Part shown: positions 17,407 through 22,671 of the stretch, piece by piece
Position numbering within the stretch: the stretch's first letter is position 1
Layout of the letters: every line of letters starts with the position of its first letter
Origin: a virus
Length of the DNA: 22,671 bases
Virus record (IMG/VR): IMGVR_UViG_3300042992_000086
Coordinates: 1-22,671 of that record
Direction: 5' to 3' (one strand)
The notes under the pieces: generated by a model
What the model was told of the DNA's origin: nothing
What the model saw: only the letters and a program-made list of their open reading frames with translations
The model's database searches: none
Translations under genes and position numbers: made by a program

Positions 17407-18074
17407 ATCGTTTTCATTAATAGGTTATAGTATTCACGGCATAGCTCCACGCGTTCTTTAATCTGCTCAATTACGGATTCATCGCGTTGAACAAACCAAT
17501 ACTTTACCCTTCGGTTGTTTGGTATATGGCTAAATTTGTGTTTAGATTCTATTTCGTTTCTTACTTCCGTGTTTTCTTCGATTAGGTGTAACTTCCAATG
17601 CGCTCGTCTTACTTCGTCTTCAACCATTTCTAACGGGGTGTCTATTAAGCAATACGCTAACACGGATTCCGTTTTACCCGTTAGCCACATATACCCTTGC
17701 AGTTGGTAAAAGTAATCTTTGTTAGGTAACTCCGTTTCGAAGAATGGAAACGTTGAAGCGTCCCAACTACTTTTAACGTCTATTAATACTTCGTCCGTGT
17801 TTACGTCGGGCGTTCCTGTAACCCAATCATTACTGAAGTGTTCGTCGTTTTTATAGATAAACTTGTAATTTAGTACCTCGTTAACCAACGCTATCGAAAG
17901 GTCTTCTACTTCGTTACCTTTGTCCGTGTAACGTGAACTAAATTCCTTACGTATTCCATACTTTTCTAATAAGACAAGGTCTTGTACGTACGTTTTTGCG
18001 GTTTGGCTTAGGACTTCCCCCGACTTGCGGGGGTTAGTCATTATCTTACCAATTTGAGAACATCGGACTTTCAT
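17403..18074 (-). CDS. YqaJ/lambda Exo-type 5'-3' exonuclease
   Basis: 223 residues from ATG 18074, overlapping the ERF stop by 4 nt. The YqaJ recombinase/exonuclease fold is shown by KGNEVEDLSIALVNEVL (52-68), then TGTPDV with D90, then VLIDVKSSWD with D99 and K101 as the PD-(D/E)XK metal site, then YFYQLQGYMWLTGK. The N-terminal CSQIGKIMTNPR is also typical. Such enzymes chew the 5' strand of duplex ends to give 3' tails that ERF anneals. Size (about 220) agrees with lambda Exo and its relatives. All expected active-site residues are visible, so the enzyme should be active. Confidence 0.88.
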   Translation of the reverse strand: MKVRCSQIGKIMTNPRKSGEVLSQTAKTYVQDLVLLEKYGIRKEFSSRYTDKGNEVEDLSIALVNEVLNYKFIYKNDEHFSNDWVTGTPDVNTDEVLIDVKSSWDASTFPFFETELPNKDYFYQLQGYMWLTGKTESVLAYCLIDTPLEMVEDEVRRAHWKLHLIEENTEVRNEIESKHKFSHIPNNRRVKYWFVQRDESVIEQIKERVELCREYYNLLMKTI

Positions 18075-18598
18075 ACGTTTTCAAGTAATTTGATTTGAGA
18101 ATCGGTTAAACTAAAGTTAGCTAATAGTTCTTCTTTAGTGTACTTACCCTCAGCGATTGCTTCTAATGCTTTGCCTAAACGCTTTTGGTCGATATTAGGT
18201 TTCTTTGGTTCGTGTTTTACTTGTTCGCCACTTGCGTCCGTGTCTTTGTCCGTAACTAATCCGAGCGCTGAAGACAACGCATAACGTCTAAAGTAAGTAA
18301 CCCCGCTCCCAAAACTTTGGTAATCGTTCATACCTTTTAATTCGACTTGCGGAATGGCTACCTTTGATTCTAACGTTTCGCCACTTTCAAAGTGAAAAAT
18401 AACCGTAGCAATATAGTCGATTCCTTCTTTAGTATCGAGTAATTGCGTAAAGCCTAATCCGTGTTTTTTTAGAAGCGGGTTAACTACTTCAAAAATCTTC
18501 GGTAAATCTGCGTAAGAATACCCATAGCCTTGTGTCCCCTTGTGAATTACGGGTACTTCTTGTTGGAAGGCTGCCAACGATTTCCATAAATTTTTCAT
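18071..18598 (-). CDS. erf: ERF-family single-strand annealing recombinase
   Basis: 175 residues from ATG 18598. An upstream in-frame TTG at 18628 is possible, but the ATG has the same leader (ACGCTATGAAAAA) as the gene before it. Hallmarks of ERF proteins: YSYADLPKIFEVVNPLLKKHG near residues 27-47, ATVIFHFESGE at about 64-74, and YQSFGSGVTYFRRYALSSAL followed by GLVTDKDTDA at about 93-124. ERF proteins form rings on single-stranded DNA and anneal complementary strands, allowing RecA-independent recombination and genome circularisation. The C-terminus is basic and then helical. The stop overlaps the exonuclease start (ATGA), the classic pairing of annealing protein and 5'-3' exonuclease. Confidence 0.9.
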   Translation of the reverse strand: MKNLWKSLAAFQQEVPVIHKGTQGYGYSYADLPKIFEVVNPLLKKHGLGFTQLLDTKEGIDYIATVIFHFESGETLESKVAIPQVELKGMNDYQSFGSGVTYFRRYALSSALGLVTDKDTDASGEQVKHEPKKPNIDQKRLGKALEAIAEGKYTKEELLANFSLTDSQIKLLENV

Positions 18599-18649
18599 AG
18601 CGTATAAATTAAAACGTGCGTTAACCAAGTCGCACCCCTTGTCTTATTA

Positions 18650-18955: not shown

Positions 18956-19363
18956 TTAGATTTTTTTTTCATTCAAATTAGTTGACCTATCAAAATAGGC
19001 CATTAACTCAATATCGTTAACGGAATGTTCGCGGGGTTTTCTACCACCTATTCTTATTTGTCCTTTAAGTTTTTCAAGTTTGCCGTATATAATTCCATCG
19101 TAACACTTCCAAATAATTACGGGGTTCGTCTTTTTGTCCATTAGCTTAACTAACTTCCTAACGGCTATTGGTAACGGGTAGGCTTCCTGTATTGTTTTGT
19201 TTCTTCCTTTTACTTCTGCGTAACCTATTATTCGTTCGTCTTTGATTAGTTCAAAATCTATATCGTTTTCGTCTAACTTCCTGCAACTTAATTCGTACTC
19301 ATCGCAAAAAATTGCTATTGCCTCGTATTCGTTTTGCAGGTCTTTAAGTGTTTCAAACCTCAT
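18956..19363 (-). CDS. PD-(D/E)XK-like nuclease, small
   Basis: 135 residues from ATG 19363, which overlaps the NinG stop by 11 nt. Residues 34-54 read DIDFELIKDERIIGYAEVKGR: an Asp in a first strand (D36), a hairpin, then E50-V-K52. That is the arrangement of a PD-(D/E)XK active site (D ... E-x-K), as in VRR-NUC or Holliday-junction resolvase folds. A helical N-terminus and a basic stretch near residues 100-112 (GKLEKLKGQIRIGGRKPRE) could contact DNA. Seen: motif and context. Inferred: metal-dependent DNA cleavage in recombination. It could be an inactive relative or a restriction-like protein. The gene ends 18 nt before a promoter. Confidence 0.55.
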   Translation of the reverse strand: MRFETLKDLQNEYEAIAIFCDEYELSCRKLDENDIDFELIKDERIIGYAEVKGRNKTIQEAYPLPIAVRKLVKLMDKKTNPVIIWKCYDGIIYGKLEKLKGQIRIGGRKPREHSVNDIELMAYFDRSTNLNEKKI

Positions 19364-19868
19364 TTATTTTTTGTTTATAGCGTTTAATAATTTCGTTTAG
19401 TTCGTCTTTTGTCCACTTCTTAACATCGTGAGCGCGGGAATGTAATTCTATTAACCTATCCGCTCCTATTCGTTGTTGGATTCCTATTTGGTAGTTTAAT
19501 AAGTTTCCGTGTTTATATTGGTTGCACGTTACGCATTGCGCGTGAACGTTGTCTTCGTCAAAGGTTACTGCCTTGTGTCCACCCATACTAAAATAATGTC
19601 CTGCGTCATATTTTGCCCCTAACGGCTTTTCGCAACTTACGCAAGGTTTATCCTTGTCGCGTAGTCGAATGTACTTGTTAAACGTTATTTGAGCCAATTT
19701 AAGTAACTCGGGTAGCGTTTGGAGTTCGTCTTTTAGTTGTTTTTTCTTTTTCTTCCATTGCTTTTCCTTTTCAGTTTCTACCCAAACACGAACGCAATCG
19801 GATTCTAGGCAATACTTTTGATTAAACCTAACGGGAATAAATACGCTTTTACAATTTTTGCAGCGCAT
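19353..19868 (-). CDS. ninG: NinG/Rap-type recombination endonuclease
   Basis: 171 residues from ATG 19868. An N-terminal zinc ribbon (C3, C6, C20, C25) is followed by a basic helix (KKKKKQLKDEL). Then comes the NinG core: YIRLRDKDKPCVSC, then YDAGHYFSMGG, a DEDNVHAQCVTCNQYKHGN block and an IGIQQRIG tail. This matches lambda NinG, which acts with phage recombinases as a structure-specific nuclease on branched DNA, with an HNH-like metal site. Length is close to lambda NinG (about 200 residues). The stop overlaps the next start by 11 nt, pairing it with a second nuclease-like gene. Together with ERF and the exonuclease downstream it forms a full phage recombination set. Confidence 0.88.
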   Translation of the reverse strand: MRCKNCKSVFIPVRFNQKYCLESDCVRVWVETEKEKQWKKKKKQLKDELQTLPELLKLAQITFNKYIRLRDKDKPCVSCEKPLGAKYDAGHYFSMGGHKAVTFDEDNVHAQCVTCNQYKHGNLLNYQIGIQQRIGADRLIELHSRAHDVKKWTKDELNEIIKRYKQKINEV

Positions 19869-20157: not shown

Positions 20158-20810
20158 TAAAATAGTTTTTGTTGTGAAATATGGTTTTTAATTCTTTGTA
20201 TCGTCTTTTCGTAATACTCGGAATCTAGTTCGCAGGCTGTTAAATCAAAGCCGTAATCGTGGCACGCTATAGCTATTGAGCCACTGCCTAAGTGGGTGTC
20301 GAGTATTTTATCTCCTTCTTTAGCAAATTTATCTAATAACCATTTATATAATTTTATCGGCTTTGATGTTGGATGAAAGTGAGTTGAAGATTGGTGAGGC
20401 ATAATTCTATTAGATATTGTTACTTTTTGCATTGGATAATTAAAAGAAGTCCACGCTAATTCTCCTGCACTAAAATTAAAAGTATTTTCATATAGTTTAT
20501 CCCAAAAAATCCAACATCTGCTTCCATTTAAATAGTCGTAATAATTAGCTCCCCAAATAATTTGATTTTTTGAAACTCTAAACAATTCATCAAAGTATTC
20601 TTTTTTAGGAGAAACATCCCAATCTTTATTTTCTTTTTTTGCTATTCTTTTATTTTTTCTTTTTGAAGGAGTAGCTGTTATATTCATAATTTGCACTCCT
20701 GTACCATAAGGCGGGTCAACTATTGCCAAGTCAAAGTAGTTGTCGGGGTAACGTGCCATTAGTAGCATATTATCCTCGTTTGTTATTCTTATTTTATTTG
20801 TTAGTTCCAT
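20157..20810 (-). CDS. DNA methyltransferase, DPPY type (copy 1)
   Basis: 217 residues from ATG 20810, overlapping the helicase gene by 17 nt. The catalytic motif DPPY is at 32-35. The AdoMet-binding motif comes late, as DTHLGSGS followed by CHDYGFDLTACELD. This order (catalytic motif, target-recognition centre, AdoMet motif) is that of beta-class amino-methyltransferases, which make N6-methyladenine or N4-methylcytosine. DPPY fits either, with adenine more usual. The central part, about residues 37-135, is Lys/Asn-rich and AT-rich with very few CpG, unlike both ends. A paralogue lies at 15799-16440 with near-identical ends and a different centre. No restriction endonuclease is adjacent, so it is probably an orphan enzyme for anti-restriction or regulation. 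Target sequence unknown. Confidence 0.85.
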   Translation of the reverse strand: MELTNKIRITNEDNMLLMARYPDNYFDLAIVDPPYGTGVQIMNITATPSKRKNKRIAKKENKDWDVSPKKEYFDELFRVSKNQIIWGANYYDYLNGSRCWIFWDKLYENTFNFSAGELAWTSFNYPMQKVTISNRIMPHQSSTHFHPTSKPIKLYKWLLDKFAKEGDKILDTHLGSGSIAIACHDYGFDLTACELDSEYYEKTIQRIKNHISQQKLF

Positions 20811-21663
20811 TTCTCATTTCTTTTAACGGGTTGATTCCGTAAACTTCAAAACCTAACCCCGAGTTAAAATTACATAAAATTTGGTCGTTTATTCCCGTAT
20901 GCTTCCCGCCCGTTTCCATATCTTTTACTTTTTCAACTCCTATCATTGTGTTATATTTCATCGTTTCGTGTTTAATTAGCCTGTGAATAACAAACATATC
21001 ATCGCATCTATTTAGAAAAGCCTTCCCGCCTTCTATGTGGTCTTTAAGTGGTGGTTTCAAGTGTCCCTTAAAATCGCCGTCCGTGTATAAATTTGCGCTT
21101 CTTCCACTTTCAGTATTTGGGTGCGTGTTTATGTAAATAGTCATACCCGTTTTGTTTACGAATTCCCGCGCCTTATTCATAAACGTGTAATTTCCTTCGT
21201 AAGTCATTTCGCGGTCTAATCCTGTGAACGGGTCTATTAAACCGACATCGCATTTGGACTTAGAAAAGATTTCCAAAAGTTCCAACGGCTTGTAAAGTTT
21301 GCTATTATCCACGAAGTAGAAAAATTGTTCTAGGTAAGCGGAATAGGAATGTATTTGGTTTGTCGTTAGATTCTTGAATGGTTCGCCACTATACATTTGT
21401 ATTAAATCCCGCAGTATTTGTCCCTTTTGATTTTCTCCCGACCATATGCAGAATTTAAGTCCGTGTTTTAATGCAAGAACAAGGAAGTACCAAAATACCC
21501 AATAAGTTTTACCTACGTTGTCGTGTCCTAAAATTATGTTTAGTTGCTTAGGTTTGAAGCGTAAATAATCGTCTAATACGCAATCAATTTTTAAGCCTTG
21601 TTGAATCTTACCTTCTTTGTAGTCGAGTAGGTATTGTAAGCTATCTCCTTGTTTAGTCAGCAT
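20794..21663 (-). CDS. DnaB-like replicative helicase, RecA-fold ATPase
   Basis: 289 residues from ATG 21663, which overlaps the upstream stop by 11 nt. Walker A is GHDNVGKT (46-53). Walker B is VGLID at about 140-144, followed by PFTG. A motif-3-like YINTHPN has its His at about 181. A further basic, DNA-contacting-type segment follows. The size is that of a single RecA domain with no DnaB N-terminal primase-interaction domain. The family includes DnaB C-terminal domain helicases and RepA-like hexameric ATPases, which unwind DNA at the fork using ATP. Its place directly after the putative initiator supports a replication role. It could instead be a RepA/RadA-like ATPase rather than a processive helicase. 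Confidence 0.75.
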   Translation of the reverse strand: MLTKQGDSLQYLLDYKEGKIQQGLKIDCVLDDYLRFKPKQLNIILGHDNVGKTYWVFWYFLVLALKHGLKFCIWSGENQKGQILRDLIQMYSGEPFKNLTTNQIHSYSAYLEQFFYFVDNSKLYKPLELLEIFSKSKCDVGLIDPFTGLDREMTYEGNYTFMNKAREFVNKTGMTIYINTHPNTESGRSANLYTDGDFKGHLKPPLKDHIEGGKAFLNRCDDMFVIHRLIKHETMKYNTMIGVEKVKDMETGGKHTGINDQILCNFNSGLGFEVYGINPLKEMRNGTNK

Positions 21664-22264
21664 TTTTGTAATCTTTAGTGTCCTTCCAATTTAACTTAGC
21701 TAATATGTTTGCGGTTTGTTGCAGGTCGTCCGATAGTTCGTTAGGGTTAATTTTGCGAATATAAGGTAACGTGTTTAAAATAGTTGATTTCCAATTTAGA
21801 ATTTTTTTGTTCTTACCTTTTACGTTAGTACACCAATCGTTTACCTTCCAACTTTCATACTTTAATCGTAGTTCGTTTTTATCTGCGGTTGGTTCTTTAC
21901 TAATTGCATAAGCTATAAACTCTTCGCAAGAAGGTATAACATTTACATTATCATTTACATTATCATTTACATTATCATTTACATTAGCTTCGCTTTTGCT
22001 TATTTCTTGCTTCGGTTTTGCTTCGCTTTTGCTTTCGGTGTGCTTTGTTTTAGGTTTGCTTCCGTTTACGAATTTCTTGTAGTTTGCTTCTAATTGGGGT
22101 GCAATCAACGTAAAGATAGTTTTACTAATTCCTTCTAACTGAATGGTTTTCCCGTTTAATCCTAACTCATAAACTGCGCTCCATACTTCGGCTTGGTTTT
22201 CTTTTGGAAGTTCCTTAATTGCTTCGTAGAAACTTCGGTAAATAATCATTGAATCTCTTTTCAT
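21653..22264 (-). CDS. DUF6291-type phage replication protein (putative initiator)
   Basis: 203 residues from ATG 22264. Longer in-frame forms beginning at TTG 22315 or ATG 22285 would start inside the terminator hairpin, so I reject them. Residues about 1-65 resemble the DUF6291 domain found at the N-terminus of phage replication proteins. Residues about 66-115 are a K/S/E/A-rich linker ending in an N-V-N-D repeat. Residues about 118-190 (CEEFIAYAISKEP, then LRLKYESWKVNDW and NWKSTILNTLPY) resemble the C-terminal part of phage initiator or helicase-loader proteins. The gene overlaps the helicase gene by 11 nt. The linker DNA holds two repeat families (21941-22034), as in lambda O, where the origin lies inside the initiator gene. 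Seen: sequence and repeats. Inferred: origin binding and helicase recruitment. Confidence 0.65.
   Translation of the reverse strand: MKRDSMIIYRSFYEAIKELPKENQAEVWSAVYELGLNGKTIQLEGISKTIFTLIAPQLEANYKKFVNGSKPKTKHTESKSEAKPKQEISKSEANVNDNVNDNVNDNVNVIPSCEEFIAYAISKEPTADKNELRLKYESWKVNDWCTNVKGKNKKILNWKSTILNTLPYIRKINPNELSDDLQQTANILAKLNWKDTKDYKNAD
21941..21985. repeat. AT-rich 12-bp tandem repeat (ATTTACATTATC, 3.75 copies)
   Basis: Three perfect copies of ATTTACATTATC (21941-21952, 21953-21964, 21965-21976) are followed by nine bases of a fourth (21977-21985). In the coding frame they give an N-V-N-D repeat at residues about 94-108 of the replication protein. Together with the adjacent GC-richer 15-bp repeats this looks like an iteron block plus an easily melted region. 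A slippage-expanded linker is the simpler alternative. Confidence 0.9.
21987..22034. repeat. Iteron-like 15-bp repeats GCTTCG(C/G)TTTTGCTT
   Basis: On the plus strand GCTTCGCTTTTGCTT occurs at 21987-22001 and 22020-22034, and GCTTCGGTTTTGCTT (one change) at 22009-22023, overlapping the last copy by four bases. Start offsets are 22 and 11 bp, close to whole turns of the helix. Copy 2 is read in a different codon frame from copies 1 and 3, so protein repetition alone does not explain it. Weaker matches follow at about 22031 and 22042 at the same 11-bp step. Confidence 0.65.
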
Positions 22265-22272
22265 AGGTACAT

Positions 22273-22322
22273 AAAAAAACCCCATTAGGTTTCGCGGTGC
22301 AGCACTACTCCCCAATGAGGTT
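22273..22322 (-). terminator. Intrinsic terminator or leader attenuator upstream of the replication gene
   Basis: On the minus strand AACCTCATTGGG (22322-22311) pairs with CCTAATGGGGTT (22289-22278) as a 12-bp stem with two G-U wobbles. The 21-nt loop contains a small GTGC/GCAC inverted repeat, and seven T residues follow directly (22279-22273). The arrangement is that of a Rho-independent terminator. It ends only 8 nt before the preferred ATG of the next gene (22264), so it lies in that gene's leader. It could simply terminate the DnaA-like gene or act as an attenuator. The loop can also pair with sequence at 22355-22345. Confidence 0.75.
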
Positions 22323-22371: not shown

Positions 22372-22671
22372 TTAATTCAATATTTGTTCATTTTCGTAAA
22401 ATTTTATTTGATATTCCCCGCGTCTTATTCGTTCTTGAATGTGTTCAAGGTCTTTTAAGCCTCCTGCGTTTTTAACGTCTAGGTATAAATCATTCATCGT
22501 TCTGTTAACCTTAAAGTTATTCATTGCTGCGCGAAGGTGTTCCGTATCGTTGTAAAAGTGCCTATCGTTTATAGATTCCCAAAGGTTCGCATTGTTAAAA
22601 GCGTGAATGCAGGTAGCGTGGTTAAGCCCTAACATTTCGCCGATTTCTATATACGAGAATCCGTACCCGCG
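22372..22671 (-). CDS. DnaA domain IV-like DNA-binding protein (C-terminal part, 5' end outside window)
   Basis: The reading frame is open from the window edge to the TAA at 22374-22372, giving about 99 residues of a longer protein. The first visible residues (GYGFSYIEIGEMLGLNHATC, continuing IHA) read like the DnaA domain IV helix-turn-helix signature, in which an 'IG..LG..HATV.HA' pattern binds DnaA boxes. An internal ATG (22635) exists but lies inside that motif, so it is not the true start. The rest is charged and helical. Seen: the motif and open frame. Known: phages of Bacteroidota often carry small DnaA-C-like proteins beside replication genes. Inferred: it binds DNA, perhaps at the phage origin or a regulatory site. 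No ATPase domain can be seen because the upstream part is missing. A generic HTH regulator is the alternative. Confidence 0.65.
   Translation of the reverse strand, partial: RGYGFSYIEIGEMLGLNHATCIHAFNNANLWESINDRHFYNDTEHLRAAMNNFKVNRTMNDLYLDVKNAGGLKDLEHIQERIRRGEYQIKFYENEQILN

Follow-up and report, generated by a model that had tools for sequence, protein, structure and literature searches.

A viral contig of 22,671 nt, which belongs to an incomplete viral record and was analyzed over its whole length (the window), very probably carries a phage replication origin nested in its own initiator gene, as in phages lambda and SPP1. The candidate origin combines an array of short iterons with an adjoining AT-rich tract, and the likely origin of these phages is thereby narrowed to about 110 bp. 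The lambda O-like layout put forward in the original prediction holds, as the iterons lie within the initiator gene, the AT-rich tract adjoins them, and a helicase gene comes next. The window also encodes an ERF annealing protein (18071-18628), NinG (19353-19868), and a terminase; given these recombination genes and the terminase, we regard it as a tailed-phage contig.

Translation of the initiator gene (21653-22264, minus strand) gave the 203-residue protein that had been claimed for it, and Pfam and AlphaFold2 divide this protein into an N-terminal DUF6291 domain, a disordered linker, and a C-terminal domain. The protein is a member of the uncharacterized family DUF6291 (PF19808; 48.1 bits against a Pfam cut-off of 27.2, E=1.3e-12, aa 5-79); it did not match the O-family profiles, and its matches were confined to DUF6291 and PHROGs without known function. 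In the full-length AlphaFold2 model, the N-domain is confident, with helices at residues 10-17, 21-37, and 45-69, and modeled alone it forms three helices with a pLDDT of 95. The stretch encoding this domain (aa 1-79; 22028-22264, minus strand) is proposed to specify iteron binding, on the grounds of the Pfam match, the three-helix model, and the natural chimeras described below. The linker, modeled with a pLDDT of <60, corresponds to the DNA of the array and the AT-rich tract. The C-terminal domain (aa 111-203; 21656-21934, minus strand) was modeled as helices with a two-strand hairpin, in the order helix-helix-strand-strand-helix; the model and the replacement of this domain in loci L016-L019 suggest that it may contact the helicase or its loader. 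Comparison of the full-length and N-domain models with PDB structures gave no convincing match, and a PDB sequence search with the protein found nothing. The viral predicted structures that matched the full model were mostly DUF6291 proteins, together with proteins named replisome organizer or DnaD. DUF6291 was not mentioned in the literature searched, which did not extend to most subscription journals, and an earlier description is possible.

The gene following the initiator gene (20794-21663, minus strand, 289 aa) overlaps it by 11 bp and encodes a DnaB/primase-helicase-like ATPase; its matches to phrog_239 (E=3e-17) and phrog_19 (E=2e-7) bear out the DnaB-like helicase expected there. Among the matches listed, the downstream genes of array-bearing or homologous loci matched the phrog_239 primase/helicase in 48 of 101 cases and the DnaB-like phrog_19 in 42 of 101; others among the 101 matched DnaC-like loaders, and the match sets overlap. 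Just 5' of the initiator start codon, the minus strand at 22273-22292 (AAACCTAATGGGGTTTTTTT) holds a short hairpin followed by a T run, which could attenuate transcription into the initiator gene. A formal terminator scan did not call this hairpin, and the Rfam, tRNA, and promoter/terminator scans returned nothing relevant.

Direct reading of the minus (coding) strand showed an array at 21987-22045 in which six AAGC cores (AAGCnAA in most cases) follow one another every 11 bp exactly. It reads AAGCACACCGA AAGCAAAAGCG AAGCAAAACCG AAGCAAGAAAT AAGCAAAAGCG AAGCT and then passes into AATGTAAATGAT repeats; the same array was supported by TRF (period 11), by a periodicity scan, and by recoding. The cores start at 22045 (core 1, 22042-22045, codon phase 0), 22034 (core 2, 22031-22034, phase 2), 22023 (core 3, 22020-22023, phase 1), 22012 (core 4, 22009-22012, phase 0), 22001 (core 5, 21998-22001, phase 2), and 21990 (core 6, AAGCT, 21987-21990, phase 1), the last of which abuts the AT-rich tract. 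As 11 is 2 more than a multiple of 3, the codon frame shifts from one core to the next, and each of the three frames holds two of the six. Further AAGC copies outside the register start at 22061, 22028, and 21995; the first of these belongs to an AAGCAAA copy (22055-22061, minus strand) lying 16 bp upstream of core 1. The original prediction described three 15-bp iterons, GCTTCG(C/G)TTTTGCTT, at 21987, 22009, and 22020 with offsets of 22 and 11 bp and with the middle copy in a different codon frame. These 15-mers are present and the frame difference is real, but the 15-mer is not the repeat unit: each one consists of two neighboring cores, TRF and direct reading give a period of 11 bp, and there are six in-register cores instead of three copies.

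Immediately beside core 6 lies the AT-rich tract (AATGTAAATGAT)n (21940-21986, 47 bp, minus strand), which we propose as the DNA unwinding element from its TRF profile and from codon bias in homologues. The 12-bp array expected beside the iterons is thus present, although in 3.9 copies, not 3.75. A protein search of viral contigs yielded 72 homologous loci, or 42 once near-identical linkers had been removed; L001 and L008, both near-copies of the window, were counted separately, their linker ends having been set differently. The tract in relatives is C-poor and A-rich, has a 6- or 12-bp periodicity, and lies immediately 3' of the last core, and the junction of core and CTAATG seen at core 6 recurs in many homologues. 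Asn codons within the tract of these protein-selected homologues are AAT rather than AAC in a ratio of 335:7, compared with 361:290 elsewhere in the same genes (Fisher p=3e-55), and Asp and Val codons are biased in the same direction. In a set selected by DNA pattern, the 48 bp after the last core averaged A 0.50, T 0.25, G 0.18, and C 0.06, compared with A 0.395 and C 0.169 for the whole genes (both among the matches listed). The peptides encoded by the tract differ widely between relatives (NVND, KDKD, NNNN, VDVD, NENE, and EYEY), which again points to the DNA.

The composition of this tract also bears on whether the array might instead be an initiator-binding site for autoregulation, that is, a roadblock or operator of the replication operon and not a place where replication starts. 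What appears to be an operon could be repressed or attenuated by tandem in-phase sites in its first gene; however, operators normally lie upstream of the gene, and a codon-biased, AT-rich, C-poor tract attached to the array fits an unwinding element and would be superfluous for an operator. We therefore consider autoregulation unlikely as the function of the array.

Natural chimeras among the homologues separate the two domains of the initiator. In L016-L019, the N-domain is 84-87% shared with the window, the C-domains are unrelated (25-33%, from a forced alignment), and the array is kept. In L015, the C-domain is 86% shared with the window, the N-domain only 13%, and the array is absent. L054 has a DnaA-like neighbor that is 95.6% identical to that of the window, a different N-domain, and no 11-bp array. 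From these chimeras, it follows that the array goes with the DUF6291 domain and not with the C-domain or the DnaA-like gene, to which association physical linkage contributes, since array and N-domain are adjacent in the gene. Sequence comparison thus makes DUF6291 the likely iteron-binding domain. We also observed that, in L015, L054, and L016-L019 relative to the window, N- and C-domains have been swapped among close relatives, the iteron/AT-rich linker being the point of junction; the repeats held in common could act as a site of recombination, and the phage encodes the ERF annealing protein and NinG noted above.

Core type was mapped onto a tree of 104 N-domains, built from 68 columns and poorly resolved, where it required 27 changes; shuffled labels needed 44.8, and none of 200 shuffles came as low. 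Judged from this clustering, core type is heritable yet switches repeatedly. Mutual information between N-domain residues and the use of AAGC or AACC gave no clear determinant of specificity. In most AACC-type initiators (e.g., L036, L052, L053, and L069), the DUF6291 domain is immediately followed by GGRPK, a motif similar to an AT-hook core, where many AAGC-type initiators have KPK or KKK; GGRPK possibly contacts the minor groove within the array or the AT-rich tract.

That the array is read by another protein, either a host initiator or the stand-alone DnaA-like protein encoded upstream, is very unlikely on this evidence. The upstream gene (22372-22671, minus strand, cut by the contig end) resembles DnaA domain IV, as the original prediction had recognized; the full-length 135-aa copy in L001 (4486-4893) just reaches the Bac_DnaA_C (PF08299) cut-off, at 31.6 against 31.5 bits. 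The gene adjoins the initiator gene, and in Cellulophaga phages similar genes, annotated as DnaA, are found close to the DUF6291 gene. As an explanation of the array, however, it fails to track it: a recognizable DnaA-like homologue was found in just 1 of the 31 non-redundant loci with enough upstream DNA, L054 has the gene without an 11-bp array, and core type clusters on the DUF6291 tree. No DnaA box (TTATnCACA-like) occurs near the array, the matches in the window being confined to 18901 and 20990. The DnaA-like neighbor is accordingly disfavored as the reader of the array, and we return to the initiator itself as the protein that probably binds it.

Within the window, the 11/22-bp self-similarity of 21985-22061 (0.679) is the highest of the whole 22.7 kb, the next best site reaching 0.476 and the mean being 0.276 (sd 0.054). 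When the peptide was held fixed and codons were drawn from the usage of the window's other genes, matches at lags 11 and 22 were expected at 56.6 ± 6.5, compared with 86 observed, and none of 20,000 synonymous recodings reached 86; the peptide therefore does not explain the periodicity. Across the 42 homologous linkers, the mean self-match at lag 11 was 0.491, and synonymous recoding lowered it to 0.378 (z=18); lags 22 (z=14), 33 (z=11), and 44 (z=12) gave peaks as well. These z-scores overstate independence, since the homologues are related to each other; nevertheless, the pattern recurs with different cores among related homologues. Individually, 28 of the 42 loci had z of ≥2, and in 35 the linker was the most 11/22-bp periodic site of the fetched DNA, the best site lying elsewhere in the other 7. 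Pairs of AAGC cores numbered 76 at 11 bp, 52 at 22 bp, 48 at 33 bp, and 34 at 44 bp in the 42 homologues, with just 4 at 12 bp, and pairs of AACC cores numbered 71, 54, 40, and 22 at 11, 22, 33, and 44 bp, respectively. AAGC cores were on the sense strand in 135 instances and on the antisense strand in 1, and AACC cores behaved alike. The repeats are selected as DNA, and the suggestion of such selection in the original prediction is supported both by the recoding tests and by the spacing in homologues.

An alternative that these numbers address directly is that the repeats serve the protein, forming a disordered linker of repeated peptide that tandem duplication and slippage have spread. The linker is indeed disordered in the model, and the 33-bp (11-codon) periodicity comes partly from the peptide alone, as the shuffled lag-33 match was raised. 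Synonymous recoding, which destroys the periodicity, nonetheless led us to reject peptide repetition as the source of the repeats. In-frame duplication cannot yield a sub-period of 11 bp that crosses codon frames, the cores occur on one strand only at 11, 22, 33, and 44 bp, and the same DNA layout is kept where the linker peptides are unrelated. Overall, a protein-level role for the repeats is highly improbable. The original prediction had anticipated that, were it wrong, relatives might retain the peptide and drop the DNA repeats; the opposite was seen, with the 11-bp register and the AT-rich tract kept while the peptide and even the core change.

Spacing is thus conserved between relatives while core sequence varies (AAGC, AACC, or AACCCC). 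The core types comprise AAGCnAA, AACCnAA, AACCC(C) with steps of 11 or 11/12 bp, and palindromic AACC....GGTT-like sites at 22-23 bp; the exceptions among homologues are some with steps of about 10 bp or of 22-23 bp. Named relatives include phages of Riemerella, Cellulophaga, and Nitratiruptor. Riemerella phage GRNRAP2 and Nitratiruptor phage NrS-3 have arrays with 11-bp AACC steps, vB_RanS_PJN03 and PJA1 have steps of about 10 bp, and phi13:2 and phi19:3 have inverted sites in the array. GC skew in these two complete genomes is confounded by gene orientation: in GRNRAP2 it drifts with gene direction; in NrS-3 it has its minimum at 17.6 kb, about 1 kb before the gene, but this minimum falls at a strand switch. 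In the Cellulophaga baltica phages phi13:2 and phi19:3, the DUF6291-like gene (L487, 3989-4651; L488, 2489-3157) contains inverted TTCAACA/TGTTGAA sites and a (ACAGATACAGTA)n block encoding the peptide TDTV; the gene after it carries the annotation of a DnaC-type (COG1484) replication protein, and upstream there is a DnaA-like gene. The sites in loci L041, L051, L055, L056, and L064 are palindromic, of the ACC..GGT type, and lie 22-23 or 33 bp apart in place of one-turn direct cores, an arrangement that suggests dimeric binding. A 51-kb Bacteroides finegoldii "plasmid" (NZ_OY725926.1; L489 and L492) carries DUF6291, dnaB, and an 11-bp AACCCC array. The additional presence of ffh, rho, tilS, and feoB makes its plasmid status doubtful, and it resembles a stretch of chromosome containing a prophage more than a true plasmid; it was therefore set aside as a replicon test.

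All viral contigs were also scanned for runs of five cores, either AAGCnAA or AACCnAA, at 11-bp steps, using no protein information. Each scan gave at least 120 matches, and the layout recurs in well over 100 related phage genomes. The matches listed were mostly on the sense strand of an open reading frame, typically about 70-80 codons past the start. DUF6291 was found in 79 of the 91 non-redundant array carriers listed; other families among the 91 were Phg_2220_C, DnaB_2 ("replication initiation and membrane attachment"), Lin1244_N, DUF7833, and DUF1376, and the PHROG matches among them included replication initiation, replisome organizer, primosomal, and DnaD-like families. DUF6291 is joined to Phg_2220_C in L361 and, in L245, to a DnaB_2 match just under the Pfam cut-off. 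The profile of the array unit is biased at the positions fixed by the search pattern and is informative at the free positions only. A control scan for five AAGCnAA cores at 12 bp gave 71 matches, mostly four-residue peptide repeats in unrelated proteins and on either strand. At 10 bp, there were 23 matches, several of which are in initiator-like genes, so that a spacing of one turn (10-11 bp), and not strictly 11 bp, seems to be what is constrained. AAGC cores at exact 10-bp steps were seen in initiator-like genes of L461, L463, L464, L465, L469, L471, L473, and L474; their linkers encode peptides such as GSKPKQTEANGSKPKQTEA, and they make up a sister class of the 11-bp arrays.

The presence of iterons is not in itself proof of an origin, because partition systems also use iteron DNA bound by a small adaptor (PMC6669507), yet a centromere-like partition site comparable to the parC iterons of ParMRC systems is scarcely credible here, as the array sits beside a helicase gene, within an initiator gene whose relatives carry replication-initiation C-domains, and has an AT-rich tract attached, and the neighboring genes identified are replication genes.

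If the segment is an origin, as we favor, the DUF6291 N-domain would bind each AAGCnAA core, and as the cores recur once per helical turn and so share one face of the DNA, successive protomers would stack side by side in one nucleoprotein complex. Strain from this complex would melt the adjoining AT-rich tract, and the C-terminal domain would then recruit the DnaB-like helicase encoded by the next gene, or its loader. The linker peptide (SKSEAKPKQEISKSEA NVNDNVND) would be largely a by-product of the origin DNA, and tolerable as such, since nearly any hydrophilic sequence can serve as a linker. The odd linker peptides shared by these proteins (SKxEAKxKQ, NVNDNV, and KDKDKD) would thus be explained as translations of the 11-bp repeat and the 6-bp AT-rich repeat. 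For DUF6291, we offer a first functional assignment, as a putative origin-binding replication initiator.

Whether this extends to a general rule is, in our estimate, an even question. Such a rule would state that the linkers of initiators with DUF6291 and other domains, in phages of Bacteroidota, Campylobacterota, and probably Bacillota, are translated origins made up of one-turn cores and a C-poor unwinding tract of 6-bp period, with the core (AAGC, AACC, AACCCC, or palindromic) setting origin specificity and the linker acting as the joint where binding domains and helicase-loading domains are swapped. If it is true, origins of uncultured phages could be located and sorted into compatibility groups by a short DNA pattern alone. 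As the protein-blind pattern repeatedly finds the same gene class, origin identity in uncultured phages becomes directly testable.

The steps proposed above match published descriptions of lambda O (PMC7466680) and SPP1 gp38 (PMC6316719). In lambda, ori consists of iterons in the middle of gene O and then an AT-rich tract, and the helicase-recruiting gene comes next (PMC7466680); the AT-rich tract follows the iterons as in the window, and the lambda coding strand is purine-rich there. The lambda iterons, however, are four 18-bp units with start-to-start distances of 20, 24, and 23 bp, or about two turns (record J02459), whereas the window has six copies of a short 7-bp core at 11 bp, or one turn. 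Lambda O and DUF6291 were compared through family profiles only, and a few of the listed array carriers match the O-like phrog_678. SPP1 oriL, in gene 38, likewise places direct repeats and an AT-rich unwinding element within the gene for the origin-binding protein (PMC6316719). By published description, the loader gp39 and the DnaB-family helicase gp40 follow the replisome organizer gp38, a layout like that of the window; SPP1 has a second origin, oriR, outside the gene. For Francisella phage KIRK, a lambda-like origin (repeats in AT-rich DNA) has been inferred inside a Phg_2220_C replication gene (PMC7924643). This C-terminal family is common to some of the array carriers found here, but the KIRK origin was not reported as an 11-bp array and its N-terminal domain is likely different. 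The rep gene of Lactococcus phage TP901-1 (AF304433) encodes a replication protein and, as here, combines repeats with an AT-rich linker; a search of it for an 11-bp array found none. Origins nested in initiator genes are therefore already known; what is new is the one-turn phasing of short cores, the role proposed for DUF6291, and the breadth of phages in which the arrangement occurs.
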